Below are positions 11,973 to 51,841 of a stretch of DNA of 64,000 nucleotides, one piece after another. Each line of letters opens with the position of its first letter. The stretch's first letter is position 1. The notes under the pieces are model-generated. The model did not search any database. It was given only the letters and a program-made list of their open reading frames with translations, and was not told the origin of the DNA. This DNA comes from Arenicella chitinivorans (GTDB lineage Bacteria; Pseudomonadota; Gammaproteobacteria; Arenicellales; Arenicellaceae). The position numbers were made by a program, and so were the translations under genes. The stretch covers positions 186,001 to 250,000 of the forward strand of contig NZ_BMXA01000003.1 of the NCBI RefSeq assembly GCF_014651515.1. Reading direction: 5' to 3'.

Positions 11973-11984
11973 ACGGTTGACCGT

Positions 11985-14639: not shown

Positions 14640-14728
14640 AGGCCCTCGAATTTGGCGTGATGAAGCCGGTCAAAATGGCTGCGGCGTGTGTATAATCACG
14701 CTATCTGCGCACCTACATTCTAGTTTTT

Positions 14729-15412: not shown

Positions 15413-15415
15413 AGC

Positions 15416-19733: not shown

Positions 19734-20510
19734 CTAAAACGGCCTCGGGATTGTCAGCCCAGCTTTTTTGCCGAGTTTTTTCTTAGAGGCCTTTTTGGTG
19801 ACCTTTTTAGTAGCCTTTTTCTTGGATGCTTTTTTAGTGACCTTTTTGGCAGCCTTTTTCTTAGAAGCTTTTTTGGTGACCTTTTTAGCAGCCTTTTTCT
19901 TGGATGCTTTTTTGGCTACCTTTTTAGCAGCCTTTTTCTTAGAAGCCTTTTTGGTGACCTTTTTAGCAGCCTTTTTCTTAGAAGCCTTTTTGGTGACCTT
20001 TTTAGTAGCCTTTTTCTTGGATGCTTTTTTGGTGACCTTTTTAGCAGCCTTTTTCTTAGAAGCTTTTTTGGTGACCTTTTTAGCAGCCTTTTTCTTGGGT
20101 GCTTTTTTGGTGACCTTTTTAGCAGCCTTTTTCTTGGGTGCTTTTTTGGTGACCTTTTTAGCAGCCTTTTTCTTGGATGCTTTTTTGGTGACCTTTTTAG
20201 TAGCCTTTTTCTTGGATGCTTTTTTGGCTACCTTTTTAGCAGCCTTTTTCTTGGATGCTTTTTTGGCTACCTTTTTAGCAGCCTTTTTCTTAGAAGCCTT
20301 TTTGGTGACCTTTTTAGCAGCCTTTTTCTTGGGTGCTTTTTTGGTGACCTTTTTAGCAGCCTTTTTCTTGGATGCTTTTTTGGCTACCTTTTTAGCAGCC
20401 TTTTTCTTAGCAGCCTTTTTGGCTACTTTCTTGCTGCTCTTTTTAACAGCCTTGGTTTCCTCTGCGGCAACTACCTTCTTGGCTTTCTTTTTTGTTTTCT
20501 TTGTGGCCAT
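19734..20510 (-). CDS. Histone H1-like lysine/alanine-rich DNA-binding protein
   Basis: 258 residues, almost wholly Lys, Ala, Val, Thr and Ser. After a 34-residue start (MATKKTKKKAKK...) come 16 perfect-length units of 13 residues, KKKA(A/T)KKV(A/T)KKA(S/P), then a short tail ending GLTIPRPF. This is the composition of eukaryotic H1 tails and of bacterial AlgP/HctB/Bph-type nucleoid proteins, which bind DNA without sequence preference and compact it. There is no globular domain. The repeats make its length prone to change between strains. It has its own terminator. The reverse strand is also open across the gene, but that is a by-product of the repeats. Confidence 0.85.
   Translation of the reverse strand: MATKKTKKKAKKVVAAEETKAVKKSSKKVAKKAAKKKAAKKVAKKASKKKAAKKVTKKAPKKKAAKKVTKKASKKKAAKKVAKKASKKKAAKKVAKKASKKKATKKVTKKASKKKAAKKVTKKAPKKKAAKKVTKKAPKKKAAKKVTKKASKKKAAKKVTKKASKKKATKKVTKKASKKKAAKKVTKKASKKKAAKKVAKKASKKKAAKKVTKKASKKKAAKKVTKKASKKKATKKVTKKASKKKLGKKAGLTIPRPF
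19785..20408. repeat. 39-bp tandem coding repeat, 16 units
   Basis: Sixteen head-to-tail 39-bp units encode the 13-residue repeat of the H1-like protein. Units differ at three codon positions: Ala/Thr at 5, Ala/Thr at 9 and Ser/Pro at 13. Identical combinations recur in blocks, for example the Thr-Thr-Ser unit at positions 6, 11 and 16, exactly five units apart, which suggests duplication of five-unit blocks. Confidence 0.9.
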
Positions 20511-20710
20511 CTAAGATTTCTCCCATTGGCTTGAGCACGGGGCTCAAGATTGGTTGGTGTAGACCCGTAGCAATTGTGCTCAGGATACAGCTTCCGTCAA
20601 ATATAGATGAAGGCAATCAAAAGTCAAGTAATGGGCTGATTCGCGCTAGTGTGCCGCGATTAGGTCGGTATAATGTCGAACTCTTGAAATTCTAAATTGT
20701 GTAGATTCTT

Positions 20711-36310: not shown

Positions 36311-38110
36311 CTACCAGCCGCACTGACGGCCTTGGTTTTGCTCTTTCAGGTAGGCATTTAGCGGAGCGAAGTAATCGATGATCGCACTACCGTCCATCTT
36401 GCGTTGTCCAGTCAGCGCTTCCATAGCATCCGGCCATGGCTTGCTCTGCCCCATAGCCAGCATGTCGCCAAGCGCTTTACCTGCATCTTTGTTTCCGTAG
36501 ATCGAGCATTCATGCAGCGGGCCAGTGTGTCCGGCCTTTTCGCACAGCGCCTTGTGGAACTGGAATTGCATGATGAACGACAGGAAGTAACGCGTATATG
36601 GCGTGTTGCCAGGGATGTGGTACTTTGCACCAGCGTCAAAGTCTGCCTCGGTACGTTCAACCGGTGCGGCGATGCCCTGATACTCGGTACGTAATTCCCA
36701 CCAGCCCTTATTGTAGTCTTCTGGTGCGATTTCACCTGAAAATACTTTCCAGCGCCACTCGTCGATCATTTTGCCAAATGGTAGAAAGGCAATTTTTTCG
36801 AGTGCCAACTTCATCTGTTTGTTGAGGGTTGCCTCTGGGCTTTCTTCAACCTTATCTATAAGACCTTTCGCCTGCAAATAGCTCGGTGTCATCGATAGTT
36901 GTATCGTATCGCCAATGGCTTCGTGGAAACCGTCATGTGCACCGCCTTTAAAGATCGGTGGCAAATCTTTATACATCAGATAGTAGTAGATATGCCCCAG
37001 CTCGTGATGCAGGGTGCCGAATTGCTCTTCGGTGATTTCGACGCATTGTTTGATCCGTGGATCGTTGCCGTTGTCGAGGTCCCAGGCGCTGGCGTGACAG
37101 ACGACGTTACGGTCGCGCGGCTTCTTGATCAGCGAGTTCTCATAGAAGCTTTCTGGCAGTGCGGGCAGACCTAATGAGGTAAAAAAACCCTCGGCTGTTT
37201 GCACCATGCGTTTTTCATCGTAGTTTTGTTCGTTGAGCGCTTTGGTGACATCCAAGGATGCGACGCCCGCATGAGGCTCCATAATCGGGTAAATGTTTTC
37301 CCAGGTCTGTGACCACATGTTACCGAGCAAATGGGCCGGAATGGGTTTATCCAGTGGTACTTTATCGGCACCATACTGTTCACTCAATTTAGCGCGAACG
37401 TGACAGTGCAGTTCATCATAAAACGGCTTAACCTGATCCCATAGGCGGCGTGCTTCGACTGTAAATTCGCTGGGGCTCATGTCGTAATTGGATTTCCACG
37501 CGTCGGCTAAATCCGCGTAGCCAGAGTCTTTTGCGCCCTGATTTGCGAGTTCGACGAAGCGTTGATACTGCTCGCGGTAGGCAGGCGACACTGTACGCCA
37601 GCCGCGCCATACGTCGAGCAGTTCGTCATAGTCACGCGATTCAGCCAGCACTTTCTCCAGTTCCTGAAGTTCACGACATTCACCTGCTTCATTGCAGTAA
37701 CTGCCAGAACCGTACGCGCCTTCCATCTCTGTCAAAACTTGTGCGAGTTCAGCGCGTAATTGCGCATCGTTGGGGGCGGGCGCCGCAGAACCACGTAGCA
37801 TTAACTCGATGGCTCGGGCAGTGGTTGGGTCCATTTTTTGCCCCTTATACTGCTTGGCTTGATTAAACACTTTACTCTCGAATTCGAGTGAGCGTTCGCC
37901 AGCTTTGGCGGCCAGCACACCTGTGTCTTTGGTAATATAGGTGCTGCGAACCCAATAGGCGGCTTCGATTTCCTTGGCCAGTTCTTGACCTTCTTTCTGT
38001 ACTCGTTCGACAAAATCTTTAGCAGATTCTGGTTTGTGGTCGTCCGCCAGCACGGGCGCGCTGCTCAGGCAGGCCGCGATGGCAACACCGATAGATAGTT
38101 TATTTAACAT
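36311..38110 (-). CDS. M2 family dipeptidyl carboxypeptidase (ACE-like)
   Basis: 599 residues with a signal peptide (cleavage near VLADDHK, about 22), so periplasmic. The zinc motif is HHELGH (HExxH, about residue 361) with the third ligand Glu in GFHEAIGD 24 residues on; HIPGNTPYTRYFLSF matches the ACE substrate pocket. Bacterial relatives release C-terminal dipeptides from oligopeptides. The gene starts 9 bp after the POT transporter gene on the same strand, so peptides cut in the periplasm would be imported by the neighbouring carrier. Confidence 0.93.
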   Translation of the reverse strand: MLNKLSIGVAIAACLSSAPVLADDHKPESAKDFVERVQKEGQELAKEIEAAYWVRSTYITKDTGVLAAKAGERSLEFESKVFNQAKQYKGQKMDPTTARAIELMLRGSAAPAPNDAQLRAELAQVLTEMEGAYGSGSYCNEAGECRELQELEKVLAESRDYDELLDVWRGWRTVSPAYREQYQRFVELANQGAKDSGYADLADAWKSNYDMSPSEFTVEARRLWDQVKPFYDELHCHVRAKLSEQYGADKVPLDKPIPAHLLGNMWSQTWENIYPIMEPHAGVASLDVTKALNEQNYDEKRMVQTAEGFFTSLGLPALPESFYENSLIKKPRDRNVVCHASAWDLDNGNDPRIKQCVEITEEQFGTLHHELGHIYYYLMYKDLPPIFKGGAHDGFHEAIGDTIQLSMTPSYLQAKGLIDKVEESPEATLNKQMKLALEKIAFLPFGKMIDEWRWKVFSGEIAPEDYNKGWWELRTEYQGIAAPVERTEADFDAGAKYHIPGNTPYTRYFLSFIMQFQFHKALCEKAGHTGPLHECSIYGNKDAGKALGDMLAMGQSKPWPDAMEALTGQRKMDGSAIIDYFAPLNAYLKEQNQGRQCGW

Positions 38111-38119
38111 GGTTTTCTC

Positions 38120-39676
38120 CTAGCTGTTTTGAGCGTTGGCTTGCTGAACTTCAGTCTCCCAGTTCTTGGAAAACAGGCTAAGCAGTAGGATAACCGCCCC
38201 GATGGCGACGCTGAACAACACAATTTGCATGTACAATCCGGGCATTTCAGACACGTTTTCTGGGTCAAAGTTGCCGGCGAAGATGCCCGCAATGATGTTG
38301 CCGATTGAGTAGGTCAGAACAAACACGCCCATCATTTGTCCAAGGTAGCGTTTTGGTGATAATTTGGACACTGCGCTTAAGGCAATCGGGCTAATAATGA
38401 GTTCGCCACAGGTATGCAAGAAGTAGGTTAGGATCAGCCAGAATGCGGCCGCTTTCATGCCGGTAGCGGCGATTTGGGCGGCGTAGTACATGGCAATAAA
38501 TCCGCTGGCCATAATGATCAAACCAATCGCACATTTAATGCCATAGGCTGGCGACACCATGCGCTGGCCGAGTTTGATCCACATGGCGGCAAAGAACGGT
38601 GAGAGCAGGATGATGAAGGTTGAGTTTGCGGACTGGAACCAAGCGGTGGGAATTTCAGTCAAGCCAAACAAGCCTAATGAGTCGGTGGCGCGATCAGTGT
38701 AGTCGCGAGCGAACAGGTTCAATGTGGAACCGGCTTGTTCGAAACCCGACCAGAAACAGGCCGACGCGATACACACGAGTAGCAGGGCCAACATGCCTTT
38801 TTTCTCAACGGAGTTAAGATTTCCGCCGAAGTAGATCGCACCAAAATAAATGATAAAAACCGCGGTGAAAACCACAGCCACGTACTGCGACAATGAAACC
38901 GGGTTGATCTTTAATAAGCCGGTCATCGTCGCCAGTGTCACAGCTGCCAAGCCGATAATAAACGCAGCAATGGTGGCCCAAGAGCGTTTGTTACCGTTGT
39001 CCGATAATGGTTGGATTGGCGCTGCGCCAACGCCATTCAATGCACCAACGGTCTTTCGGAACTGAATCAAGCCGACACCCATACCGACAGCTGCTGCGCC
39101 AAATGCCCAGTGCGCGCCGAAGCCTTCAGCTTCGTAGAAATAACCGCATACGGTGTAGCCAATTAGCGATCCGATATTGATACCCATGTAATAGATCGCA
39201 TAGCCACTGTCGCGGCGGTTATCCGTTGCGCTGTATAGCTGTCCGACTAATGCACCAATATTAGGCTTCAACAACCCAGTGCCAAGAACCACGAGAATAA
39301 GTCCGATGAAGAATGTCTGGTTGTTCGGTATTGCTAACACAATGTGTCCACACATGATGATGATACCGCCGTACCAAACGGCGCGTTGACTGCCGATCAG
39401 GCGATCAGCCATCCAACCTCCGGGGAGGCCCATAAAATAGACCGACGCGGTGTACAAGCCGTAGATCGCAGTGGCGACGGCTGTTGTAAGTGCTAATCCG
39501 CCTTCGTTAATTGAGGCCGTTAGGAACAGTACTAATAGGCCGCGCATGCCGTAATAACTCATGCGTTCCCACATTTCAGTGAAGAATAAAGTTTTCAGTC
39601 CACGCGGGTGGCCAAAGAACGAGGTATCCATTGTGTTTGAGTCTGGGCTCAAGGCACCTTCGGTAGTTTGATTCAT
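38120..39676 (-). CDS. POT family proton-coupled di/tripeptide transporter
   Basis: About 518 residues from the ATG at 39676 (AGGTAAACC upstream); an in-frame extension to 39823 lacks any site. It has 12-14 helices. The PTR2 signature is present as FFTEMWERMSYYGMRGLLVLF (E-x-x-E/R-x-x-x-Y region) and GGWMADRLIGSQRAVWYGG, with NIGSLIGYTV as the second signature. It imports di- and tripeptides with protons. It is co-transcribed with the periplasmic M2 peptidase and is divergent, across a 1-kb gap, from a TonB receptor. Confidence 0.93.
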   Translation of the reverse strand: MNQTTEGALSPDSNTMDTSFFGHPRGLKTLFFTEMWERMSYYGMRGLLVLFLTASINEGGLALTTAVATAIYGLYTASVYFMGLPGGWMADRLIGSQRAVWYGGIIIMCGHIVLAIPNNQTFFIGLILVVLGTGLLKPNIGALVGQLYSATDNRRDSGYAIYYMGINIGSLIGYTVCGYFYEAEGFGAHWAFGAAAVGMGVGLIQFRKTVGALNGVGAAPIQPLSDNGNKRSWATIAAFIIGLAAVTLATMTGLLKINPVSLSQYVAVVFTAVFIIYFGAIYFGGNLNSVEKKGMLALLLVCIASACFWSGFEQAGSTLNLFARDYTDRATDSLGLFGLTEIPTAWFQSANSTFIILLSPFFAAMWIKLGQRMVSPAYGIKCAIGLIIMASGFIAMYYAAQIAATGMKAAAFWLILTYFLHTCGELIISPIALSAVSKLSPKRYLGQMMGVFVLTYSIGNIIAGIFAGNFDPENVSEMPGLYMQIVLFSVAIGAVILLLSLFSKNWETEVQQANAQNS

Positions 39677-40716
39677 AGGTTTACCTAATTTTGTATTTAT
39701 ATATTTATGGCTCGGCGGGTTACGAAGATTCGTGGAGCTCAACGCCGCACAGAGCTTGATTAAAAGTTTAATTAGCTCGGCCACTTTGCCGCATAAATGC
39801 AGCAGATAGGGCTGCAGAAGCATGAAAATATCATACTTTGATTTTTTTTCCGCCTATCTCAGATCAACACCTTGAATGTGAGTTGCATTGTGAAAGGTTG
39901 GCGGGTATCGCTTTGCAGTCGCGATTCGACGAGGGATTGGCGTCGATTGATGCTGCGGTTTGTAAATACCAAGTGATGATTATGCGGCATGACTGGAACG
40001 CATTCGGGGCGTGCCAATGCTGATAAAAATTCTCAGTATTGTTAACGGTTTGCGTGTCATTTTAGCGTTGAGTGTTGGTCAAAAATCCGCTTCTATAACG
40101 CTCTGTATCACACGCATAATGGCATCGTCCTGAGCGCCTGACGACGACGCGCGTCTTAGAAAATCGCTGGGAATTTAGGGTGGAGCAGGATATACGGTTA
40201 TTGTCATTAATGCCGCATAATATTCTTTATTTATGGGGATAATCGCAGGACATGCTGGGCGGCTTAATGAATTTAGATAAGTGTGCGATTTTAGCAACGC
40301 AATTTGAAGTGAAAAATCGTTCGTTTGATCGCCCGCTCGCCGAATTTTCTTTTTTTATACAATGGTTTAGGTGTAAAAGATTGGGCTTGGATTAGGTGCC
40401 ACCCAGGGTGTGGCGTAATAGACACAGGTTAGCACTTCGAATGCGTGATTTACCACAAATCATATATTGTCTTCTTATCCGGTCTGTAATAAGCTGGTAA
40501 CAAATTAAGGGTGACCAGTGCTTCCACGAGTGTACGTCTCCTTAGTTATTCAGCCACCCGAGTGCGCAATGTTGTGCAGACTCGGGTTTGTGTGTTCTGA
40601 CCCAATTATCAACGCGAGAATTACTTGTTCCCAATCCTACGTTCTGATCCATTGTGTTCGTGCATGCGCGGCTGTGTCCAAAAGTCTTACATAAACCTTA
40701 ATAGAGGAAAGAGTGT
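39677..40716. other. Long intergenic region between POT and TonB receptor genes
   Basis: About 1,040 bp with no convincing gene. Frames of 61 codons (39838-40023) and 47 codons (40252-40395) exist, but codon use is poor. The segment is A/T-richer than its surroundings and must carry the divergent promoters of the transporter and the receptor. A compact hairpin lies at 40556-40587, and an AGAGGAAAGAG ribosome-binding site precedes the receptor ATG. The rest is unexplained. Confidence 0.6.
40556..40587 (+). promoter_or_regulatory. Hairpin in the leader of the TonB receptor
   Basis: ACCCGAGT (40556-40563) pairs with ACTCGGGT (40580-40587), and GCGCAA (40564-40569) with TTGTGC (40572-40577, one wobble), giving a nearly continuous 14-bp stem about 130 bases before the start codon. 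It could be a weak terminator of an upstream transcript or an RNA stability or control element of the receptor mRNA. Confidence 0.4.
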
Positions 40717-43602
40717 ATGAATTACAATAACCCTTTTAGAAAAAGTGCGATTGCGCTAGCGGTAAGTTCTGCAAGCGTATTAGCGAGTGGCTTCAGCGGC
40801 TCAGCTTTCGCGCAAGAAGAAGACGTGGCTGATGCGGCTCAACTTGAAGTTGTTACCGTAACTGGTTCGCGCATTCGTCGTCCAGATTTAGATGGTGCTA
40901 GCCCAGTTACTGTCATCAACCGTCAAGAGTTGCTTGAAACTGGTATCACTGACATCGGTGATCTGATTCAAAGCATGCCTTCAATGTCAGGTTCACCAAT
41001 CGGCACAACTACCAACAACGGTGGTAACGGTGCGGTATTGATTGACCTGCGTGGTTTGGGTACTGCGCGTACTCTGACTCTGGTCAACGGTCAACGTATG
41101 GTAGATGGTGGTGATTTCCAAACTATCCCATCGTCGATGATCGAGCGTGTTGAAATCCTGAAAGACGGTGCATCAGCGGTATACGGTGCAGACGCGGTAT
41201 CAGGCGTAGTAAACATCATCACCCGTAAAGATTTCGAAGGTGTTGAGCTGTCTGCGCAAGTTGCAGAGTGGCAAGATACTGAAGGTGCTGGCCAAACTAC
41301 GTTTGGTTTCATCGCTGGTAACGCCTTTGACGGCGGTAACTTCGTTTTCGGTGCTGAGCACGTAACACAAGACGAAGCTTACCAAGCAGATACTCCTTGG
41401 GAGTACATGAAAGATTCTTACTACATCTATCCAGAAGGTTGTGAGAATAATCTGCTTGAGCCATACCCAACTGGTTGTTTCCGCATTGGTTCTTCGCGTA
41501 TCCCTGAAGGTCGTTTTGGCTTCTTGTCACAAGGTACTTTCACCACGGCTAGCGTTGCAGAAGCACCATACCAAGCTGCTTTGATGACGCCATTCGATGG
41601 TCGTAACTACAACTACGCACCAGTCAACTACATGCAAACGCCGTATGAGCGTACTAACATTTTTGCTGAAGCCAACTTTGATTTGACCGATTCAGTTCGT
41701 TTCAAAACTGAGTTGCGCGGTAACTTCCGTGAATCAGCGCAAGAGTTGGCACCATTGCCATACGCGACTGGCCCAACAGGTGATCCAGGCTACCGTGGTA
41801 ACTTCAACGGCACAGCGTACAATGGTGTTTCTGAGCAGAACTACTACTTGCGTCAAGCGGTTGACCGTTACAATGCGGCAACCGGTGCTGGCCTAGTTTA
41901 TGAGCCAGTGGTTGATGTGCGTCGTCGTCAAATTGAAACGACTCGTCGTTTTGAGCAAGAAATCACTCAGTTCCAATTCGTTACTGCACTGGAAGGTGAG
42001 TTCAACGACATGAACTGGAGTGTTTTCATGAACCAAGGTTACCGTGTTCGTGATGACGTTGACTATGGTCAATTCTCAGGCAACCGTTTGTCCAATGCAT
42101 TAGGCCCATCGGCTGACTTGGATGGCGATGGACGCCCAGAATGTTACGGCAACGTAAATGACCCAAGCACCTTAATTCAAGGCTGTGTGCCATTGAATCT
42201 GTTTGGTGGCGGTACTGTGGTTCGTAACACTGGTGAAATCACTGGTACGTCTCTGACTCAAGACATGGTTGATTACGTGTCTGTTGACTTGGTTGATCAG
42301 TACAAAAACCGTCAAACTGTGATTGGTGCTGATATCGCCGGTTCCATGTTTGAACTACCTGCTGGTGAAGTTGGTTGGGCTGTTGGTTACCAATACTGGG
42401 ATCAAAGCTTCTCATATACACCAGACTCAGCGAAAGCTTTGGGTGCGGCCACCGGTAACGTTGGTGCAGGAACTAATGGTGATCTGACCAGTAACTCAGT
42501 ATTTGCTGAGGTATCGGTTCCTCTACTAGATAACGGCACGCAAAACTTGTACATCGACGCGGGCGTTCGTTACGACGATTACGATGCGTTTGATGCTGAA
42601 ACAACGTGGCAAGCAAAAATCAACTTCCAAGTATTGGATGATGTGAAATTGCGTGCGACTGCGGGTTCAGTATACCGTGCTCCTACCATCAGCAACCTGT
42701 TTGGTGGTTTGGTTGACAGCTTCCCAACTGCGAATGACCCATGTTCATTGTCTGGTAGCGCTGCTATCGCTCCAGGTTGTGCGCAAGTTGCACCGCAAAC
42801 GGATTCTCAGCTGCGTTCGAATGTTGGTGGTAACCCAAATCTACGTCCTGAATCTGGTGAAACATTCACCGCAGGTGTAGTTTGGACTCCAAACTTTGAG
42901 AACAGCGATTTGTCAATCACGTTGGACTACTGGGACATCACACTGGATGACGGTATTTCAAGCTTGGGTGCACAAGCCATTCTGGATGACTGTTATGTTA
43001 ACCTGAACCAAGATGCGTGCTTATTGGTAACACGTAACCCAGACTACTCTGTTGGTTTGATCTTGGATGCGCCTTTGAACCTGACCGAAGAAACAGCGAA
43101 AGGTATCGACTTCGAAGCGCGTTATAACTTCAGCACTGACATCGGTCAGTTCGAAGCATCGTTCTTGTTGGCGCACACGCTTGAGCGTGGCTTCCGTCCT
43201 ACAGCGAATGATCCAATTGATGATTTTGCCGGACGTTACACACTGGGCGAAGCTTTTGCTGAGAACAAGTTCAATGCACGTCTACAATGGAGCCGCAACG
43301 ACCTGTCTATTGGCTGGTTGGGTGAGTACATTGGCAAGTTAGAAGCTGATACCAACTGTAACTGTGGTGTAGGTAACCGCCCAGATGGTTCATACGTACA
43401 AGACATCGATGCGCAAATGTATCATGACTTGGTTGTGAACTACACGGTAGGCGACACTGGTTTAAGTGTTGCTGGCGGTGTCACTAACTTGACTGACGAA
43501 GAGCCACCTTACATTGACTCAGGCTTCAACGGTAACACTGACCCAGCGACATACCGTCTGTTCGGTCGTGGTTACTACCTGCGTCTAAACTGGAAGTTCT
43601 AA
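40717..43602 (+). CDS. Large TonB-dependent receptor (probable peptide-locus receptor)
   Basis: 961 residues: signal peptide (cleavage near AFAQEED, about 33), TonB-box-like VVTVTGSRIRRPD, plug with DLRGLGTARTLTLVNGQRM and ILKDGASAVYGADAVSGVVNIITRK, and a large barrel ending RLNWKF. It is of the type with GSRIRR start common in Alteromonadales and Xanthomonadales. Codon use is strongly biased towards a small set (GGT, CGT, GAA, GTT), more than in its neighbours, which suggests very high expression. It is divergent from the POT-M2 pair, so peptide uptake is a fair inference. Its substrate is not shown by sequence. Confidence 0.88.
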   Translation: MNYNNPFRKSAIALAVSSASVLASGFSGSAFAQEEDVADAAQLEVVTVTGSRIRRPDLDGASPVTVINRQELLETGITDIGDLIQSMPSMSGSPIGTTTNNGGNGAVLIDLRGLGTARTLTLVNGQRMVDGGDFQTIPSSMIERVEILKDGASAVYGADAVSGVVNIITRKDFEGVELSAQVAEWQDTEGAGQTTFGFIAGNAFDGGNFVFGAEHVTQDEAYQADTPWEYMKDSYYIYPEGCENNLLEPYPTGCFRIGSSRIPEGRFGFLSQGTFTTASVAEAPYQAALMTPFDGRNYNYAPVNYMQTPYERTNIFAEANFDLTDSVRFKTELRGNFRESAQELAPLPYATGPTGDPGYRGNFNGTAYNGVSEQNYYLRQAVDRYNAATGAGLVYEPVVDVRRRQIETTRRFEQEITQFQFVTALEGEFNDMNWSVFMNQGYRVRDDVDYGQFSGNRLSNALGPSADLDGDGRPECYGNVNDPSTLIQGCVPLNLFGGGTVVRNTGEITGTSLTQDMVDYVSVDLVDQYKNRQTVIGADIAGSMFELPAGEVGWAVGYQYWDQSFSYTPDSAKALGAATGNVGAGTNGDLTSNSVFAEVSVPLLDNGTQNLYIDAGVRYDDYDAFDAETTWQAKINFQVLDDVKLRATAGSVYRAPTISNLFGGLVDSFPTANDPCSLSGSAAIAPGCAQVAPQTDSQLRSNVGGNPNLRPESGETFTAGVVWTPNFENSDLSITLDYWDITLDDGISSLGAQAILDDCYVNLNQDACLLVTRNPDYSVGLILDAPLNLTEETAKGIDFEARYNFSTDIGQFEASFLLAHTLERGFRPTANDPIDDFAGRYTLGEAFAENKFNARLQWSRNDLSIGWLGEYIGKLEADTNCNCGVGNRPDGSYVQDIDAQMYHDLVVNYTVGDTGLSVAGGVTNLTDEEPPYIDSGFNGNTDPATYRLFGRGYYLRLNWKF

Positions 43603-43641
43603 TCAGTTGACCAAAATCTAGAATAATTAGAGTAATGATTA

Positions 43642-43669
43642 AGGGCTGCCAATTGGCAGCCCTTTTTTT
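43642..43669 (+). terminator. Intrinsic terminator after TonB receptor
   Basis: A 9-bp stem AGGGCTGCC with GGCAGCCCT and an AATT loop is followed by seven T, 40 bases after the stop codon. Confidence 0.9.
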
Positions 43670-43747
43670 CTGTTTAGTGAGTAACGTTTGGGTCACTCGA
43701 TTGACGTCGAAATGATCGCCGTCATACTCTAGTTCATTCGGCGCACT

Positions 43748-44152
43748 TTATGCTGCCCACAGAGAATCTTGTTCTACCAGTTCTAGCAGTGATGTAGATT
43801 GCGCTACTAGGGAATCGGCAAGAACGTTGTCTACGGTGTCATTATCGTAGAGCCTTTGCGCGTCCAATTGCCATTTCAGCGCAAAATGACGGGCCGCTTC
43901 TCGTGGCGTTAGCGCGACGTCCTCGGCGGCAAAGTGTACAAGTTCGTTGGAGTTCGCGAACCAGATTGTTTGAGTGTGACTGGTAGAAGTTCGGACCTTG
44001 CCGATCATGATAGAGAAAGGAAAAATCCAGCTTGGTTTCGCTTCCGCGATTTGACTCTCGATGACGTTACGAGCAGCCAAAGTGTGAACCGATTGAGCCA
44101 AGGTTTTGTTTACCCAGTCGGTTATCTCAGGTTTGTCGCTAATTGATTTCAT
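43748..44152 (-). CDS. DUF4826 family protein
   Basis: 134 residues with no signal peptide. The opening ITDWVNKTLAQSVHTLAARNVIES, the central IMIGKV strand, AARHFALKWQLDAQRL and the closing LLELVEQDSLW follow the DUF4826 pattern seen in marine gammaproteobacteria (WV... at the start, RHFxLxWQL in the middle, Leu-rich end). No function is known for the family. It starts 3 bp after the methyltransferase gene on the same strand, so the two are almost certainly co-transcribed. Confidence 0.7.
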   Translation of the reverse strand: MKSISDKPEITDWVNKTLAQSVHTLAARNVIESQIAEAKPSWIFPFSIMIGKVRTSTSHTQTIWFANSNELVHFAAEDVALTPREAARHFALKWQLDAQRLYDNDTVDNVLADSLVAQSTSLLELVEQDSLWAA

Positions 44153-44155
44153 GAT

Positions 44156-45124
44156 TTAATTCTTTACCGCAGTAAGTGCCCATGCAAGTGGGCGATTGGT
44201 GTCATTTGGCATTAGAGGACCGGCTTGCTGTAACGTTAAGCCTTGTCCGTGAAGGCGTTCGCAAAGACGATGAAACTGTGCTTCATCGATTGCTGCATCC
44301 AACATGGATTGCATTCTGACGCTGTACGCGTCTGCCTCGCGTTGCATCGCGTCTAACCAGTTGTTAAGTTCGCTAGCGTCGTAGTTGAGGAAGCTTGCGT
44401 GGATCTTGCCAGTGGTCAGGTACAAGTGCTCGAGAAAATCAGCCGCAACAAGGTCACCACCTTGCTGAACCGCGTTTTCAATACTGCGCATTGCAGGCTG
44501 TAAATCGGCACCGGCTTGATCATAAGCGCGTCGGTCGTTGCCATCGGCGGCAGCGAACCCGGCGTTAAAAAAAGCTTGTGCGAGCGGTAAGAATCGCGAT
44601 TCTTTAAGCGTGGTCAACAGTGCTAGATTGCGTCGGCATTCGCCTGCAATGCTTCCGCCCGTGTAGTGTAGTAAAACGCGTAGTGTGCCTTGTGGCGCGA
44701 GGGTTCGGACTGCCTCGTCAAACGCCCTTTGACCAGCATACTCGATTCCAAACTGACTGAGCACGACGTCGAATTGGCCATCGTCAAACTGTGTGTCCGC
44801 GGCATCGCCGAGCACAGTTTTCACGTCAGTAAAGCGCTCACCGATATGTTGGATCGCCGCTTCCGATGAATCCAAACACGTCACCGCAATCTGTTCGCTT
44901 TGCGGGCTGTTACGCAGCATGTCGATTAATGCGCCATGTCCACTGGCTAAATCAAGTAATTGCAGTGGCATTGGTTTGTTTACGAGTTCTGAGAAGAAGG
45001 TATACCAGTATGTTTGGATACTTGGGTGGTTGGCGCCGCTGTCTGAAAAAGCATGTGCGGAGTCAGAGTTCTGCCAAAAAGTGTCCCAGCTGGAGATCTG
45101 CTGGGTAGAGTTATCAGTGGTCAT
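44156..45124 (-). CDS. Class I SAM-dependent methyltransferase
   Basis: 322 residues. The SAM-binding motif I is LLDLASGHGALIDML (about 59-73), followed by CLDSSEAAI (acidic ribose contact) and VLSQFGIEYA as motif IV. The C-terminal ~150 residues are helical and of unknown substrate. It is the first gene of a two-gene unit with DUF4826 and is divergent, with 75 bp between, from the TPR-sulfotransferase pair, so joint control is possible. The methyl acceptor is unknown. Confidence 0.88.
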   Translation of the reverse strand: MTTDNSTQQISSWDTFWQNSDSAHAFSDSGANHPSIQTYWYTFFSELVNKPMPLQLLDLASGHGALIDMLRNSPQSEQIAVTCLDSSEAAIQHIGERFTDVKTVLGDAADTQFDDGQFDVVLSQFGIEYAGQRAFDEAVRTLAPQGTLRVLLHYTGGSIAGECRRNLALLTTLKESRFLPLAQAFFNAGFAAADGNDRRAYDQAGADLQPAMRSIENAVQQGGDLVAADFLEHLYLTTGKIHASFLNYDASELNNWLDAMQREADAYSVRMQSMLDAAIDEAQFHRLCERLHGQGLTLQQAGPLMPNDTNRPLAWALTAVKN

Positions 45125-45199
45125 GGGCTTAGATAAATAGCGCTGTTCGGTACCCGTGTTATGTTACCATTTCACACCGATTCAGATCAGATCTTTGCG

Positions 45200-46777
45200 A
45201 TGAATAACCACGTAAATTCTTTGAGTAAGGCAGCGCGTCAAGCGGCGATGAATCGAGATTGGAGCGCGGTGATGCAGTACGCTGGCCAGATTCTCAATGT
45301 CGAACCTAATTCCCCCGAGGGACTCTTTTTGCGCGGACTTTCTAGCCGCGCACAGGGTCATGCTGACGCCGCGATCAGCGCGCTGCAGGCGGCGTTCTCA
45401 CAGGACCCGGCCCGTTACGACGCAGCGGTTGAGTTGGCCGCGATCTATTCACTACAACGCCAAAATAGCAAGGCAGCCGACTTGTTAGAGCGGGTCGTCC
45501 CCTTGCTAAATAACAGTCCCAGATATTTGGATTTGGCCGGCACGGTTTACACCGAGATCGGTCTAATAGATAAAGCGTATCCATTGTTTGTGAAAGCCGC
45601 TGAGATTCAACCCGGTATCGATGTCTTTGAAGCAAACCTGGCGACCTGCAGTGTCTATCTTGGTAAGATCGACGAGGGCATCGCACTGTATGAAAGCTTG
45701 CTGCAACGCAACCCGTCACATCGCAAGAACCATTATCAATTATCACGTCTGAGAAAGGCAGAGAATGAGACGCATATTGCGCAGATGCAGGACCTTTTGC
45801 TGGATCCTAACGTGGACCCGCGGCGAAATGTGCCGCTTTTATTTGCAATCGCAAAGGAGCTCGAAGATCTCCAGCGATGGCCAGAGAGCTTTACCTATTA
45901 TCAACGCGGTTGCGACGCGATTTCGCAACAACTAAGCTATCGCGTCGAAGATGATGTTGCGTTGATTGATCAACTTATCGAGACCTGCTCTGAGCAGTGG
46001 GTAGCAGATCAGAATTTAGCGCACGATAAGGCCGAACCAACGCCGATTTTTATTGTGGGTTTGCCGAGAACTGGCACCACACTGGTTGAACGCATCATCT
46101 CTAGTCATAGCGAAGTTGAAAGCCTCGGTGAAACCCTATTTTTGCCACGCATCTTACAGTCACTGGGTTCGCAAGTCGGTGGCAAGCCCTTATCCGCTCA
46201 GACTATTAGAGATCTTGGAAAAAAAGACTTGAGTGGCTTACCGGGTGCGTACTTGAATCAAGTCGGGTATCGATTGCAGGGAGCACCCATGTTTATAGAA
46301 AAATTGCCCTTCAATTTTCTTTATGCTGGGTTTGTTGCTAAAACCTGGCCCCATGCAAAGTTTGTACATCTAGTTCGTCAACCCATGGATGCGTGTTTTT
46401 CGATGTACAAGCAAGTTTTTACCGGCGCTTACCCGTACTCGTATCGGCTGGCGGATTTAGGGCGCTATTACGTGGCGTATGATCGTCTGCGTCAGCATTG
46501 GCAGCGGGTTCTCGGTGATCGTTTTATCGAGGTGGAATATGAAGCGCTGGTTACCGACCAAGCGGCGCAAACGACTGACTTGTTGCGTAGCTTGTCGCTC
46601 GAGTACGAACCTCAATGCCTACAGTTTGAACGTAACCAAGCGCCAAGCGCGACAGCGAGCTCGGTGCAGGTGCGAAGTGGCGTCCACTCGGGGTCTGTGA
46701 ATAAATGGCGACGATACGAAGCCGAGTTAGCCCCCTTACGCGCAGTGCTTGAGGCAAACGGCATAACGGTTGGTTGA
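45200..46777 (+). CDS. TPR-repeat sulfotransferase, copy 1
   Basis: About 525 residues from the ATG at 45200 (no strong ribosome-binding site; the extension to 45161 is rejected). The N-terminal ~260 residues are TPR repeats (for example AMNRDWSAVMQYAGQILNVEP). The C-terminal ~260 form a Sulfotransfer_3-type domain: 5' PAPS loop IFIVGLPRTGTTLVERIISSHSEV (read in parts), then KFVHLVRQPMDACFSMYKQVF as the 3' phosphate loop, and SVQVRSGVHSGSVNKWRRYEAEL near the end. It would transfer sulfate from PAPS to a protein, peptide or glycan. Its stop overlaps the next gene's ATG by one base. Confidence 0.85.
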   Translation: MNNHVNSLSKAARQAAMNRDWSAVMQYAGQILNVEPNSPEGLFLRGLSSRAQGHADAAISALQAAFSQDPARYDAAVELAAIYSLQRQNSKAADLLERVVPLLNNSPRYLDLAGTVYTEIGLIDKAYPLFVKAAEIQPGIDVFEANLATCSVYLGKIDEGIALYESLLQRNPSHRKNHYQLSRLRKAENETHIAQMQDLLLDPNVDPRRNVPLLFAIAKELEDLQRWPESFTYYQRGCDAISQQLSYRVEDDVALIDQLIETCSEQWVADQNLAHDKAEPTPIFIVGLPRTGTTLVERIISSHSEVESLGETLFLPRILQSLGSQVGGKPLSAQTIRDLGKKDLSGLPGAYLNQVGYRLQGAPMFIEKLPFNFLYAGFVAKTWPHAKFVHLVRQPMDACFSMYKQVFTGAYPYSYRLADLGRYYVAYDRLRQHWQRVLGDRFIEVEYEALVTDQAAQTTDLLRSLSLEYEPQCLQFERNQAPSATASSVQVRSGVHSGSVNKWRRYEAELAPLRAVLEANGITVG

Positions 46778-48372
46778 TGCGTGTGAATCAAGTCTCTGTG
46801 CTAGAGCTGAGTCGGCGTGCGCGTCTAGCCGTAAGTCAACGTCACTGGGCTGCTGTCGAAACGGCCGCCAACTCTATTTTGCGCATCGACGAGCATAGCG
46901 CAGAAGGGTGGTTCTTATCTGGTTTGTATCAACAGTCGCAACGGCAGCTGGGTGCGGCTATGCATGCTTTCGAATACGCTTGGCAGTTAGCGCCGGAGCG
47001 CTATGATGCGGCGATCGAATTGGCAGGTTTGAAGCGACAACAATTACACCATGCGGAAGCGGTCCAGATCCTGCAACAAGTTGGTCCATTGTGCCACCAG
47101 AGCTCGTTATACAGTCATAAAGCTGCGCAGATTTACACCCGTCTGGGTTTGCATGAAAGCGCAAATCCATTTTACCGACGAGCGGTTGCGATTCAGCCTG
47201 ACGCGGCGTCGTTAAAAGCCAGTTTGGCCACCAATACCACACTGCTAGGCAACATCGATGAAGCTCGTTTGCTGTTAAACGACCTACTGCACCGTTACCC
47301 CAAACATCAGCGCCATCACTGGGAACTAGCTGCACTGAGGTCCGCCCAGGACGATCATCATTTACGGCAGATGCAGCAGCTTCTTGAGGCTTCTGATGAG
47401 CCGGACGAACGTAATATATTTTTACTGTACGCAATTGGCAAAGAGTCCGAAGACCTCGAACGTTGGGAATCCGCCTTTGATTGTTATCAACGTGCCGGTG
47501 CGGCAGCAGTGAGACTGGCCAGCGCGTCGGGTTATCAGATCGGTCAAGATACGGCACCCTTGGATGCGCTTCCTTCACTCTGTAGTCGAGACTGGTGTGC
47601 GCAACATGTCACATCGAGCGCTTCGAAAGACAATGAGCTAACCCCGATTTTTGTGGTTGGATTGCCGCGGACCGGCACTACCTTGGTCGAACGTATTTTG
47701 AGTAGCCACTCGAATGTGGATAGCGCTGACGAGACCTTCTTTTTGCCAATTGCACTACGTCAGGCTATTCAATCGACAGACTACACCAACCCGGATTTGA
47801 CCGTTGCTGATCTGACCCGCGTGGCTGAAACCTCGCTCAGAGAGGTGGCAAAAACGTACAGTGATCTAGTTCGATATCGACTCGATGGAGCGCAATATTT
47901 CGTCGATAAATACCCGCTCAACTTTAAAAACCTTGGGTTTATCTGTGCGGCATTTCCGAACGCAAAAATTGTTTTGCTTGATCGACATCCGATGGATGCG
48001 TGTTTCGCATTATTTAAACAGCCGTATTTCAACTTTGCATATCGTTTGGATCATCTAGCGGATTATTACCTTGCTTATGATCGGTTAAGACGCCATTGGC
48101 TCGCGAGTTTAGGAGAACGGATAACGTCAGTGAACTACGAGGCACTCGTGACAGAACCGCAGCGAGAAATTGCCCGGCTGTTGGATAAACTTGAGTTGCC
48201 GATTGAGCAGGCTTGCTTCGATTTTCACACCAACCAGTCCGCGAGTGCAACCGCTAGCTCAGTGCAAGTCAGAGAGGCAATGCACCGTCGCTCGGTGCAG
48301 AAGTGGGTCAATTGGGAGCGCCAGCTGGCGCCATTGAGTGCATCTCTATTGGCCGCCGGTGTATCAGTCTAG
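46777..48372 (+). CDS. TPR-repeat sulfotransferase, copy 2
   Basis: About 531 residues starting at an ATG that shares its A with the TGA of copy 1. It is a diverged paralogue with the same plan: TPR half (HWAAVETAANSILRIDEHSAEGWFLSG, read in parts), PAPS loop IFVVGLPRTGTTLVERILSSHSNV, 3' loop KIVLLDRHPMDACFALFKQPYF, and SSVQVREAMHRRSVQKWVNWERQL at the end. Catalytic residues appear intact in both copies, so both may be active on different acceptors or work as a heteromer. The order copy 1, copy 2, then the variant protein is on one strand, 52 bp apart at the second gap. Confidence 0.85.
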   Translation: MRVNQVSVLELSRRARLAVSQRHWAAVETAANSILRIDEHSAEGWFLSGLYQQSQRQLGAAMHAFEYAWQLAPERYDAAIELAGLKRQQLHHAEAVQILQQVGPLCHQSSLYSHKAAQIYTRLGLHESANPFYRRAVAIQPDAASLKASLATNTTLLGNIDEARLLLNDLLHRYPKHQRHHWELAALRSAQDDHHLRQMQQLLEASDEPDERNIFLLYAIGKESEDLERWESAFDCYQRAGAAAVRLASASGYQIGQDTAPLDALPSLCSRDWCAQHVTSSASKDNELTPIFVVGLPRTGTTLVERILSSHSNVDSADETFFLPIALRQAIQSTDYTNPDLTVADLTRVAETSLREVAKTYSDLVRYRLDGAQYFVDKYPLNFKNLGFICAAFPNAKIVLLDRHPMDACFALFKQPYFNFAYRLDHLADYYLAYDRLRRHWLASLGERITSVNYEALVTEPQREIARLLDKLELPIEQACFDFHTNQSASATASSVQVREAMHRRSVQKWVNWERQLAPLSASLLAAGVSV

Positions 48373-48424
48373 TTGAGCCCAAATGTCACGAATCGGATTA
48401 CGCAGATAAAGTCAGCAACGAATT

Positions 48425-49495
48425 ATGAAATTAACCCCCTCGCAAACCGAAATTGCTATTCCGAATTTATTATTCGATCCTGAGTTCTATGTTTTTGATA
48501 TTGAACCGTTGGCAGGTCGATATAAGTTTTTGATGATGTCGGAAGAGAACTTGCGGTTGTGTCCATTCATTGATATTCGTGCCGAACCGCTTGCGCAAGC
48601 GAGTTTCTATCTGGATGCCGGTCAGGTGGAATCGTTGGAGGCGAACCACGATATGGTTCGACCAGCAGTTCACTACATCTTTCATCATGCGTTCGTATGC
48701 TCGACCTTAATGGCGCGTGGTTTGGATCAGTTGCCTCAATTCATTAGCTTGAAGGAGCCGTGGATTTTGCGGCGATTGGCAGACATTAAGCGATCTGATC
48801 ATGCCGGTGAGCTTGCTCAGGGTGAGCGGTGGCGAACGATGTTTTTAACCGCTAACCGATTATTAGCTAAGCGTTATCGATCAGGCCATAATGTGGTGGT
48901 AAAGGCTACCAATGTATCGAATAATCTCATCTCCGATACGCTCGATTATCTCCCCGCGAGCAAGATTGTGTATATGTACTCAGGGTTGAAAGACTTTTTG
49001 GTCTCGAACCTAAAGAAGCCCGCAGAAACACGCGAAAAAATGCCATGGTTACTACAGCAGTTCTTAAAAGATGCTGACTTTAGTTTGCTTCTAGGCCGCA
49101 TACAGCCCGTCAACCAACTCACTTTTTTGCAGGTGTGCGCGTTGATTTGGTTAACCAATATGTCGGTAATTGAGCAGCACCTGCGTGGTGCAAACGGTCG
49201 TCGAATTCTGTTACTGGAGATGACTGACTTTTTACTGCAGACCCCGGAAACATTAGCTCAGATGGTTAAGCATTTTGAGCAACCGGTAGCGTCGGCTGAG
49301 TTGCAAGCGCTCGCGCAATCAGACACTTTTCAACGTGATGCGAAAAACAGTGAGGCCAAGTATTCTGCCGAGCAAAAGCGGATCGAGAAACAAGCGCTAC
49401 TGGACGCATACGGTGGTCAAATCGACGCCGTAATGGACTGGTCTGCGCCCCTGGTTGCATTGCTTTCGCTCGATACCTACGCCAAGCTTGATTAA
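48425..49495 (+). CDS. Sulfotransferase-like P-loop protein (variant)
   Basis: 356 residues without signal or membrane helices. After a beta-rich N-terminus comes FHHAFVCSTLMARGLD, followed by SLKEPWILRRLADI, which resembles the P-loop and acceptor region of sulfotransferase relatives that carry the unusual H-x-A-F-x-x-S-T loop. VVVKATNVSNNL and SKIVYMYSGLKDFLVSNL fit later strands of that fold. The classical GxPRxGTT loop of the two genes upstream is absent. It lies on their strand, 52 bp after copy 2. Function is probably sulfate transfer or an accessory role, but this is an inference. Confidence 0.6.
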   Translation: MKLTPSQTEIAIPNLLFDPEFYVFDIEPLAGRYKFLMMSEENLRLCPFIDIRAEPLAQASFYLDAGQVESLEANHDMVRPAVHYIFHHAFVCSTLMARGLDQLPQFISLKEPWILRRLADIKRSDHAGELAQGERWRTMFLTANRLLAKRYRSGHNVVVKATNVSNNLISDTLDYLPASKIVYMYSGLKDFLVSNLKKPAETREKMPWLLQQFLKDADFSLLLGRIQPVNQLTFLQVCALIWLTNMSVIEQHLRGANGRRILLLEMTDFLLQTPETLAQMVKHFEQPVASAELQALAQSDTFQRDAKNSEAKYSAEQKRIEKQALLDAYGGQIDAVMDWSAPLVALLSLDTYAKLD

Positions 49496-49499
49496 CGTC

Positions 49500-50270
49500 T
49501 CAATCCAGATCTGGCCGCGCAATTGCAGGATCAGATCTGAGCCAGCCAGTGATTGAATAGCGGTTTGCGTTCACAAAGGGGGCCACGGGCGAGACGCTGT
49601 GCAGAACTGGGACTCGAAACAGTGTCATGGTATTAAACCCCGGATACCAAGTCTCAGACGCATTCTCATTTGGTCCATTAAAAAAATTGGTGCCGCCGCC
49701 CCAGTTTGGAGACCAGTGAGGACAGAAGTTAAATACGACGGCATACTTTCGCTGTCCGCTTGGGTTGGCTTCGCGTTTATCACCAAAGTCATCGTGTATA
49801 TTTAAAAAATGCCCTTTTTGATAACACGTCGCGCTTGGATTCATTTTCACTAAGCTTTTATCTTTAGTAAGTGCTCGGGCATAGTTCAAAAATTCGCTGC
49901 TGTTTAAGAACGTTGCTATTTGGTACAACATCGCCTGTTCATCAAGTTGTTGGCGTAAGATGGCATTGATGATGGGATAAAATTTATAGATAAATTGATA
50001 TTCGTCAGACGCGCGTGAATACACGTCTTGATAAATCGCTGACTCCTCCTGCTCACTGAGTGTCTCAAGCTCAAAGGCATCCAGTGCATGCGCAGTCCCG
50101 GCTTCACCACTGTATGCTAAGTGCCAAGGGGTCTCGTGCTGGAGAGTTCGGTGGATAGCGTTGGCAGCCTCTTCAGTAAACAGGTTAGGCACCCGTACTC
50201 TACCTGTGTTTTCGAGTTGCGTAACGTGGCTGGGGTCGAGCTCAGGGCGCTGTAGTGCAAGGCGTGGCAT
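49500..50270 (-). CDS. 2OG-Fe(II) oxygenase (prolyl-hydroxylase-like)
   Basis: About 256 residues from the ATG at 50270; an in-frame GTG at 50312 would add 14 residues, and no clear ribosome-binding site decides between them. The core has GHFLNIHDDFGDK (HxD metal ligands), KYAVVFNFCPHWSPNWGGGTNFF, then FNTMTLFRVPVLHSVSPVAPFVN with the distal His and NRYSITGWLRSD with the 2-oxoglutarate-binding Arg. These fit the prolyl-4-hydroxylase/Ofd1-like branch. It is convergent with the sulfotransferase-like gene, 4 bp apart. It could hydroxylate a protein or peptide; the partner is not known. Confidence 0.88.
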   Translation of the reverse strand: MPRLALQRPELDPSHVTQLENTGRVRVPNLFTEEAANAIHRTLQHETPWHLAYSGEAGTAHALDAFELETLSEQEESAIYQDVYSRASDEYQFIYKFYPIINAILRQQLDEQAMLYQIATFLNSSEFLNYARALTKDKSLVKMNPSATCYQKGHFLNIHDDFGDKREANPSGQRKYAVVFNFCPHWSPNWGGGTNFFNGPNENASETWYPGFNTMTLFRVPVLHSVSPVAPFVNANRYSITGWLRSDPAIARPDLD

Positions 50271-50417
50271 ATTTGATCGAGAGCAAACTAATTCAACGCC
50301 GCATTTTCGCACGCTTTTTGTTGAGCGTAAAATGGGAAAAAACTGAACTTTTTGCGCAGGAAACAGTGAATTGCAACGTTAAACTAATACACAAGCAATT
50401 AATTAAGGAGTTTATCC

Positions 50418-50810
50418 ATGAAAAAATTTAATGTCGTAAGTGTCCTAGCTGGCCTGTCGGTTGCTCTGACTGGGCCAACGTTTGCACAAGAACAAGCCGC
50501 TGAAGATTTTCCAGACGGTCCTCCGCGACATCATGAGTTGAAGCATCACAAAAAGAAGCGTGATCGTATGCATGAGTACATGATGAAGAAGGTGGATACC
50601 AATGAAGATGGTCAGATCGATTTGTCTGAGTATCTCGCCAACGCTGAGCAACGCTTCAAAAACATGGATCTCAATGGCGATGGCTATGTAACTCGTGAGG
50701 AACAAAAAGAAGCCGGGAAGATCATGCGTGAGAAACACCGTGAAATGCGAGAGAAAATGCGCGCTGAACGAAAAGCAGCGCGTAAGGCAGCTGAAGGCGA
50801 CAGCGAATAA
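50418..50810 (+). CDS. Secreted EF-hand calcium-binding protein
   Basis: 130 residues with a signal peptide (cleavage near TFAQEQ, about 23) and AAGGAG upstream of the ATG. A His-rich stretch (PPRHHELKHHKKK) is followed by two EF-hand loops, DTNEDGQIDLSE and DLNGDGYVTREE, both with the Asp/Asn, Gly and Glu positions intact, then a highly charged Arg/Lys/Glu helix. It would bind Ca2+ in the periplasm and perhaps transition metals through the His cluster. It is 13 bp before the ECF sigma gene and likely in its operon, so a sensor or a target of the sigma factor is plausible. Confidence 0.85.
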   Translation: MKKFNVVSVLAGLSVALTGPTFAQEQAAEDFPDGPPRHHELKHHKKKRDRMHEYMMKKVDTNEDGQIDLSEYLANAEQRFKNMDLNGDGYVTREEQKEAGKIMREKHREMREKMRAERKAARKAAEGDSE

Positions 50811-50823
50811 TCGGTCTGTTTGA

Positions 50824-51465
50824 ATGTCGGCGTACGCCCAATTTGATGATCGGCGTTTGTTTGAGCTGATTCGGTCGGGTAACCATGATGCATTTACGCA
50901 ATTGGTTACCCGCTACACGGACCAGTTTTTCGCGCTGGCTTATCGAACGCTGGGGAGCGTGGAAGACGCACGAGATGTCGTACAGCAAGCGTTTGTAAAC
51001 TTGTGGGTCCGACCGCATATGTGGCGACCGGACAAAGCCAAGTTCACAACCTGGTTTTATCGTGTGATTCTTAACGCGTGTCACGACCAACTTCGTCGCG
51101 GCGCTAAAACCGCGACGGTCGAGCCGGCTGAATTCGATCGCGCCGTGGGTGAGACGTTTATGGAGTCGCACTCAGCAACGAAGGATGTAGCTGACACGGT
51201 TGCAGAGCGTCAACATACGGAATGGCAACGTCATTCCTTACGCCGTTGGATCGCTGAGCTGCCGAGTGCGCAACGTGATGCGCTCACGCTTGTGGTGCAA
51301 TCTGAACTGCCTCAGCGAGAAGCCGCCGAGGTTCTTGGGGTCAGCGTTAAAGCGCTCGAGTCCTTATTGATCCGCGCCAAGCGAAACCTAGCGCAGCAGT
51401 TGGCCGTGGAACAATCTAAGCAGCGTAGAGATAGCCCATTGCTGCGTAATATATTGAGTCAATAA
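50824..51465 (+). CDS. ECF-type RNA polymerase sigma factor
   Basis: 213 residues. Region 2 is seen as FTQLVTRYTDQFFALAYRTLGSVEDARDVVQQAFVNLW and KFTTWFYRVILNACHDQLRR (read in parts), and region 4 as LPSAQRDALTLVVQ to QREAAEVLGVSVKALESLLIRAKRNL. There is no region 1.1 or 3, so it belongs to the ECF group. Genes before and after it on the same strand, an EF-hand protein and a short membrane protein, are consistent with an envelope-signal circuit. Target promoters are unknown. Confidence 0.93.
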   Translation: MSAYAQFDDRRLFELIRSGNHDAFTQLVTRYTDQFFALAYRTLGSVEDARDVVQQAFVNLWVRPHMWRPDKAKFTTWFYRVILNACHDQLRRGAKTATVEPAEFDRAVGETFMESHSATKDVADTVAERQHTEWQRHSLRRWIAELPSAQRDALTLVVQSELPQREAAEVLGVSVKALESLLIRAKRNLAQQLAVEQSKQRRDSPLLRNILSQ

Positions 51466-51475
51466 CGGGGGGCGT

Positions 51476-51841
51476 ATGAGCGAGTCAAACTCTACCATTG
51501 AAATGTTAATCAAGCAGAGCAGTCAGGATGTGCCTGATGCAGCATCGCTGCAAATGCAAATACTTGAACGCACGCGTCATCTGCCTCAGAGCGTACCTCG
51601 CCAGTTGGAGCAGCCCAGTGCTAAGGCACGCAAATCTACGGTTCGTCGTTGGTGGAATCCATTGCTGGCCACGACAGCCGTGACGGTATTGGCGATTGGG
51701 GTCTTGGGTGATCGCCAGGATTGGTATCGCGACGTGCCATCAGTACACATGACTGCGGTAAACGACACCGGTGACGCATATCAGCTGGAGTTGCAAGAGC
51801 TTCTGATTCTGGAAGATGATCGCTTGTTTGCCCAGTTGTGA
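51476..51841 (+). CDS. Small single-pass membrane protein, likely anti-sigma factor
   Basis: 121 residues. The first ~60 are hydrophilic and presumably cytoplasmic, then one membrane helix (PLLATTAVTVLAIGVLG, about 62-78), then a periplasmic tail of about 40 residues ending EDDRLFAQL. It starts 10 bases after the sigma gene, the usual place for an anti-sigma factor, but no zinc HxxxCxxC motif is present and the sequence matches no family that I know. The role is inferred from topology and position only. Confidence 0.65.
   Translation: MSESNSTIEMLIKQSSQDVPDAASLQMQILERTRHLPQSVPRQLEQPSAKARKSTVRRWWNPLLATTAVTVLAIGVLGDRQDWYRDVPSVHMTAVNDTGDAYQLELQELLILEDDRLFAQL

Follow-up and report, generated by a model that had tools for sequence, protein, structure and literature searches.

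A cassette of sulfotransferase, oxygenase and methyltransferase genes was found beside a TonB-dependent receptor (TBDR) gene of Arenicella chitinivorans, within a 64,000-nucleotide stretch of contig NZ_BMXA01000003.1 (assembly GCF_014651515.1, positions 186,001 to 250,000; hereafter the window), the genome itself (G000) comprising 4.03 Mb in 17 contigs. In receptor-rich genomes TPR-sulfotransferases and TBDRs are genomic partners, as are the variant sulfotransferase-like protein, here termed the variant sulfotransferase ST3 and 2-oxoglutarate (2OG) oxygenases, and both pairs meet at the receptor of this window. We tentatively propose that these genes constitute a receptor-linked cassette for polypeptide tailoring, of which the favored target is the cognate TBDR prior to export. 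The enzymes are very probably linked functionally to the receptors and a polypeptide is their probable substrate, while the identification of this polypeptide as the receptor itself is plausible and is put forward with less assurance. Gene calls and profiles were generated with custom scripts, and the features of the cluster are as follows.

40717..43602, plus strand: TBDR of 961 amino acids (Pfam PF07715, plug, 2.5e-22; PF00593, barrel, 1.3e-29)
43748..44152, minus strand: DUF4826 protein of 134 amino acids (Pfam, 1.3e-12)
44156..45124, minus strand: class I methyltransferase of 322 amino acids (Pfam PF08241, 3.5e-13)
45161..46777, plus strand: TST1, a TPR-sulfotransferase whose catalytic domain resembles the protein-tyrosine sulfotransferases (TPSTs) (Pfam Sulfotransfer_3 and TPR, 4.9e-46)
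46774..48372, plus strand: TST2, a TPR-sulfotransferase (Pfam Sulfotransfer_3 and TPR, 6.4e-42; start codon TTG at 46774 or ATG at 46777)
48425..49495, plus strand: ST3, a putative variant sulfotransferase and partner of 2OG oxygenases (assigned from predicted fold and gene neighbors)
49500..50270, minus strand: OXY, a 2OG-Fe(II) oxygenase related to OGFOD1/Tpa1 (PF13661, 5.3e-18; frame open to 50312, ATG at 50270)

The open reading frame (ORF) list and the Pfam matches agree with the gene set and strands described in the initial annotation, which had been made from the DNA letters alone. The genes are tightly packed: TST1 and TST2 share one to four bases, according to which TST2 start is taken, ST3 and OXY are convergent and four bases apart, and the widest gap within the cluster is approximately 145 bases (43603-43747).

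The pairing of TPR-sulfotransferases with receptors was apparent across the genus, in which 18 genomes contain 481 plug domains in approximately 61 Mb. Outside the main locus, 40 TPR-sulfotransferase genes were counted, many of them mutual orthologs, and 29 of these had receptor sequence no further than 1.5 kb away. This count derives from 63 matches, for which 40 places were fetched, and comprises 39 of these places plus a gene on contig C9 of the window genome (L026); the remaining matches are those of the main locus and a few fragments, while L156 and second copies in L126 and L134 were left out owing to weak scores. When genes cut by contig ends were excluded, 26 of 32 TPR-sulfotransferases were found near a receptor versus none of 14 short-frame sulfotransferases (Fisher 1.6e-7, a value which treats genes as independent though many are orthologous). 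The latter controls were matches with an assigned locus and an open frame of less than 420 amino acids, the absence of TPR being deduced from length; in two of them (L275 and L283) the flank is shortened, and the TPR-sulfotransferase profile itself gives a weak match to L283. Several receptor clades take part in this linkage. Viewed from the receptor side, a TPR-sulfotransferase lies within 3.5 kb of 28 of the 35 receptors of one clade, the seven misses consisting of four at contig ends and three that are real. The two genus genomes that yielded no TPR-sulfotransferase match also lack this receptor clade.

At the level of the phylum, the sulfotransferase domain was detected in 125 of 299 genomes, and 40 of the 75 matching genera were sampled, one gene each, from among the best matches listed. 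In 21 of the 26 receptor-rich genera a receptor was located within 3 kb of the TPR-sulfotransferase, where approximately 1.6 would be expected (the figure of 1.58 disregards gene length, and the true value may be approximately twice as high), and 20 of these 21 pairs are no more than 140 bases apart, as measured between open frames rather than start codons. The threshold of 20 receptors that separates receptor-rich from receptor-poor genomes was chosen post hoc, the observed counts being 0 to 6 or at least 21. The TPR-sulfotransferase is thus a habitual, although not exclusive, partner of receptors. The neighbors of the enzyme-receptor pairs vary while the pair itself persists. Receptor and TPR-sulfotransferase trees of 19 pairs also agree (r = 0.954; none of 5000 permutations as high), a result which counts for little because such agreement is expected of any linked genes in related species. 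In genomes G006 (L123, L239) and G016 (L137, L238), a TPR-sulfotransferase and a receptor, both unlinked, derive from related parts of these trees, and they possibly represent pairs that were split within the genome yet kept.

Co-occurrence of the genes in other genomes, whose absence had been named beforehand in the initial annotation as grounds for discarding its proposal, was observed in Arenicella relatives, in other taxa and for both gene pairings. Larger cassettes occupy the same chromosomal site in other Arenicella genomes and comprise a receptor, a TPR-2OG oxygenase (PF13759, 5.9e-18), a methyltransferase, one or two TPR-sulfotransferases, a TPR-AspH hydroxylase (PF05118, 4.3e-39), one or two OXY genes and up to two ST3 genes, while G001 harbors two TPR-sulfotransferases together with the receptor, DUF4826 and methyltransferase genes. 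The DUF4826 gene is also retained beside receptor and methyltransferase genes in L103. AspH-type hydroxylases gave a single match in the genome of the window (G000:C2:197124-197603), distant from the cassette. EF-hand and sigma genes were considered as further parts and rejected, because they are retained in L114, where the enzymes are absent.

Among 73 loci of GTDB genomes retrieved with the OXY profile, a receptor was present in 31 and a TPR-2OG oxygenase in 28 (24 of which also carry a receptor), followed by methyltransferase (16), TPST-like sulfotransferase (14), AspH (12) and ST3 (7). Eight of these loci duplicate contigs of the genus genomes, and the corresponding counts for the other 65 are 28 for TBDR, 23 for TPR-2OG oxygenase, 10 for methyltransferase, 7 for TST, 6 for AspH and 4 for ST3. 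Colwellia, HTCC2148 and Steroidobacteraceae are represented among the loci, as are many sphingomonads. The recurrence of related cassettes at the same Arenicella site and in other taxa indicates that the gene set is no chance grouping. In Colwellia loci L078 and L082, DUF3450, ExbB-type, ExbD and TonB genes come after the cassette (approximately 11900-15580), and a SapC protein (PF07277, 3.7e-59) is encoded within the HTCC2148 cassette (L056:7196-7984).

In the predicted model of TST1 (predicted local distance difference test score, pLDDT, 84.5), a TPR superhelix precedes the sulfotransferase domain. The fold of this modeled domain is closest to that of human TPST1 (structures 5wri/5wrj; Z 23.1 over 237 residues at 2.5 A), and the domain family profile matches TPST1 at 7.7e-26. 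The TPR part of the model resembles that of O-GlcNAc transferase (Z approximately 18.9). TST2 is 49% identical to TST1 within the sulfotransferase domain, the evidence for a TPST-like fold being that of the TST1 model. Both proteins carry the loop (PRSGTT-like) for 3'-phosphoadenosine 5'-phosphosulfate (PAPS), and P13, R14, G16, T18 and E35 are invariant or near-invariant in a 10-row TST alignment that was aligned to TPST1; the glutamate of the E35 column is presumably catalytic. These features bear on the suggestion that the target of the enzymes is a glycan or lipid of the cell surface, the receptor being nearby for regulatory reasons, which we regard as quite improbable. Sugars are frequent sulfotransferase substrates and the TPR-sulfotransferase family is present in receptor-poor genomes too; however, the TST domain shows a much closer fit to TPSTs than to the next-ranked sulfotransferases (Z 23.1 versus 18.1), 26 of 32 TPR-sulfotransferases adjoin receptors, and no glycosyltransferase is present among the scanned genes of the window cluster.

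ST3 matched no Pfam family above the cut-off, and its assignment to the sulfotransferase superfamily rests on its predicted model (pLDDT 83.8), which adopts a sulfotransferase fold. The best matches of this model are protein-tyrosine sulfotransferases (Z 15.1 over 231 residues at 3.6 A), followed by heparan sulfotransferases (NDST; Z 13.6), a ranking which lends some support to a glycan substrate, and Foldseek placed sulfotransferases on top with low TM-scores (at most 0.53), retinol dehydratase occupying the first row. While S93 and T94 are invariant, ST3 has Cys or Val-Cys where the canonical PAPS loop carries Arg, and the activity of this putative sulfotransferase is therefore uncertain.

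ST3 is rare, being detected in 11 of 397 genomes, and a 2OG oxygenase is its direct neighbor in 8 of 11 places (10 genomes) outside the genus, distributed as follows.

AspH: L245, L247, L249, L250
TauD: L248
PF13640 protein: L251, L254
OXY: L252

No 2OG oxygenase lies directly beside ST3 in L244, L246 and L253. Within Arenicella, the neighbor of ST3 is OXY or AspH (window, L019, L020, L021, L022 and L023) or TauD (L018 and L025), with no oxygenase directly beside ST3 in L024. The association of one sulfotransferase with varying oxygenases suggests that ST3 sulfates a hydroxyl group produced by its partner.

Although searching solved structures with the OXY sequence alone returned nothing useful, the OXY profile matched OGFOD1 (1.5e-11) and Tpa1 (1.4e-8) across the catalytic domain. 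The HxD...H iron ligands and the 2OG-binding arginine are kept, H153, D155, H218 and R231 being invariant in 8 rows. OGFOD1 and Tpa1 are built of two domains, whereas OXY (approximately 256 amino acids) has one Pfam oxygenase domain and lacks the second. The closest solved relatives of OXY and of the sulfotransferase domains are thus protein-modifying enzymes. Together with the co-occurrence described above, this bears out the suggestion of the initial annotation that a set of group-transfer enzymes is tied to the receptor.

Because these relatives modify proteins and several cassette enzymes carry TPR, and because the cofactors are cytosolic and the receptor pairing is constant while neighbors change, we favor a polypeptide substrate supplied by the receptor locus. 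Under the proposed mechanism, the enzymes would work in the cytosol, where the TPR superhelix would hold the unfolded polypeptide and feed it to the TPST-like domain, which would sulfate hydroxyl side chains. OXY would hydroxylate a side chain and ST3 would sulfate the resulting hydroxyl, while the methyltransferase may contribute another mark. The modified cognate receptor would then be exported via Sec, its loops or plug having gained charged groups that could shape ligand binding. It is conceivable, although held with more reserve than the proposal for the window itself, that many Pseudomonadota genera modify TBDRs in this manner, through TPR-guided, TPST-like cytosolic sulfation and a hydroxylate-then-sulfate relay of ST3 and oxygenase. 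In a bolder form of the proposal, sulfate might serve as a leaving group, as it does in CurM and retinol dehydratase, which are related in structure, to give dehydrated or cross-linked residues. Were receptors the substrate, one of the main classes of bacterial uptake receptor would carry unseen chemistry which possibly sets ligand range, and a function would be found for the TPR-sulfotransferases that are widespread in receptor-rich bacteria.

Several observations weigh against modification of the receptor. Genomic linkage is not proof of chemistry, and the cytosolic location of the enzymes was judged by eye. In G009 a close receptor is accompanied by the methyltransferase only, in G013 the receptor occupies the same site without any of the enzymes, and 32 of the 73 OXY loci, some being short contigs, have no other cassette profile. 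A receptor was near the enzyme in none of the 14 receptor-poor genomes, and other substrates are therefore needed too. Acidic-context tyrosines numbered 2.66 per protein in 29 linked receptors versus 2.82 in 39 controls (p 0.82), and none switches with enzyme presence, which lends no support to these tyrosines as sulfation sites of linked receptors. Of the substrates raised in the initial annotation, protein modification thus gains support from the protein-modifying relatives, while the receptor's loops gain none from the tyrosine test. Any modified sites on receptors would accordingly be non-canonical for TPST, or be Ser/Thr or hydroxylated residues. Sequence motifs overrepresented among the linked receptors, such as R.I..K (24 of 29 linked receptors and 0 of 39 controls), come from one receptor clade and were not read as signs of modification, and a higher proline content (4.36% in linked receptors versus 3.59% in controls, p 8e-5) is likewise confounded by clade.

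The main rival to receptor modification, which we consider somewhat unlikely, holds that tailoring is directed at a peptide or small molecule that is secreted and then re-imported by the receptor, such as a siderophore-like ligand or a ribosomally synthesized and post-translationally modified peptide. Receptors of this class do import such ligands, pairs of ST3 and AspH lie beside receptors in L247, L249 and L250, and a SPASM radical SAM protein follows ST3 and OXY in one Arenicella locus (L021:9543-12392), a hint of a peptide substrate. In one publication, a lasso B2 protein, AspH and sulfotransferases stand under neighboring cluster numbers of a single table (PMC10040529). Conversely, no peptide exporter is present among the scanned genes (36311-51841), and a cluster with gaps this narrow leaves little space for a precursor gene, which could lie elsewhere, although small ORFs were not searched systematically. 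Were the substrate a ligand, the genes would indicate a new family of sulfated, hydroxylated molecules imported by TonB receptors.

Action on a receptor-imported nutrient, in a catabolic or detoxifying pathway, appears quite unlikely. It draws on the genes for an M2 (ACE-like) peptidase and a POT peptide transporter that flank the receptor (36311-39823, minus strand), relatives of both being located beside the receptor in L112 and of the transporter alone in L104 and L114. It also draws on the TPR-sulfotransferase-receptor pairs of L121, L125, L126, L130 and L132, which adjoin a Sulfotransfer_2 protein; the majority of these loci also have a BCCT transporter, a GMC oxidoreductase and a GBBH-like TauD dioxygenase beside the pair. 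However, the transporter persists without the enzymes (L114) or with the methyltransferase alone (L104), the enzyme accompanies receptors of several clades with changing neighbors, and the use of PAPS in catabolism would be costly.

While the enzyme families are known, the kind of system, namely, a cassette for sulfation and hydroxylation linked to receptors of the outer membrane, appears new, given the genomic linkage and full-text searches of an open-access library, whose returned listings contained no report of sulfotransferases as TonB receptor partners or of this cassette. The fold, nucleotide loop and conserved Glu column of TST1 all align with TPST1/TPST2, yet the TSTs are bacterial, have an added TPR superhelix, show no membrane anchor and have no evident acidic-tyrosine substrate. 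Likewise, OXY shares its catalytic-domain profile match and HxD...H...R residues with OGFOD1/Tpa1, but the solved relatives span 562 to 647 amino acids, whereas OXY is a single domain of approximately 250 amino acids linked to sulfotransferases. O-GlcNAc transferase also places a TPR superhelix ahead of a protein-acting group-transfer domain; its transfer domain and chemistry are different, and the resemblance is one of analogy rather than membership. PKHD-type hydroxylase genes adjoin iron receptor genes in the pairs PiuC-PiuA and YbiX-Fiu. Set beside the window by description only, these share the arrangement of a 2OG oxygenase gene next to a TBDR gene but lack sulfotransferases. In PMC4176598, a PKHD hydroxylase and receptors appear in one regulon table with no link drawn there, and a word search of PMC1790865 returned no sulfotransferase, hydroxylase or oxygenase. 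RaxST of Xanthomonas, as described in PMC4216712 and PMC6637879, is a bacterial tyrosine sulfotransferase which acts on an exported polypeptide, RaxX; in that system the polypeptide is a small peptide accompanied by a type I secretion operon, in contrast to the receptor, TPR domains, oxygenase and methyltransferase of the present locus. No Rax-like precursor peptide or type I secretion gene was found among the ORFs scanned (36311-51841), tiny ORFs not being included.

The window receptor clusters with those of G001 and G009, separate from the receptors of the larger cassettes. Its effective number of codons (Nc) of 38.2 is the second lowest of 47 called genes of at least 120 codons in the window, and TST1, TST2 and the other enzyme genes have ordinary codon usage (Nc 51.7-55.3). 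The high-expression codon use ascribed to the receptor in the initial annotation is thus upheld as a strong bias, from which high expression itself may be inferred. The lowest Nc belongs to a false gene call (19768-20514, plus strand) antisense to a Lys/Ala-rich repeat ORF (19734-20510, minus strand; 258 amino acids), which is composed of KKAAKKVTKKASK units and appears by eye to be histone H1-like. A secreted-looking protein of approximately 155 to 190 amino acids with the motif C..D..RL.CYD, of which two members were tested and matched no Pfam family, forms a cluster covering 17 loci and is encoded near the receptor at L061:2240-2812, L055:15850-16278, L246:7571-8038 and others.

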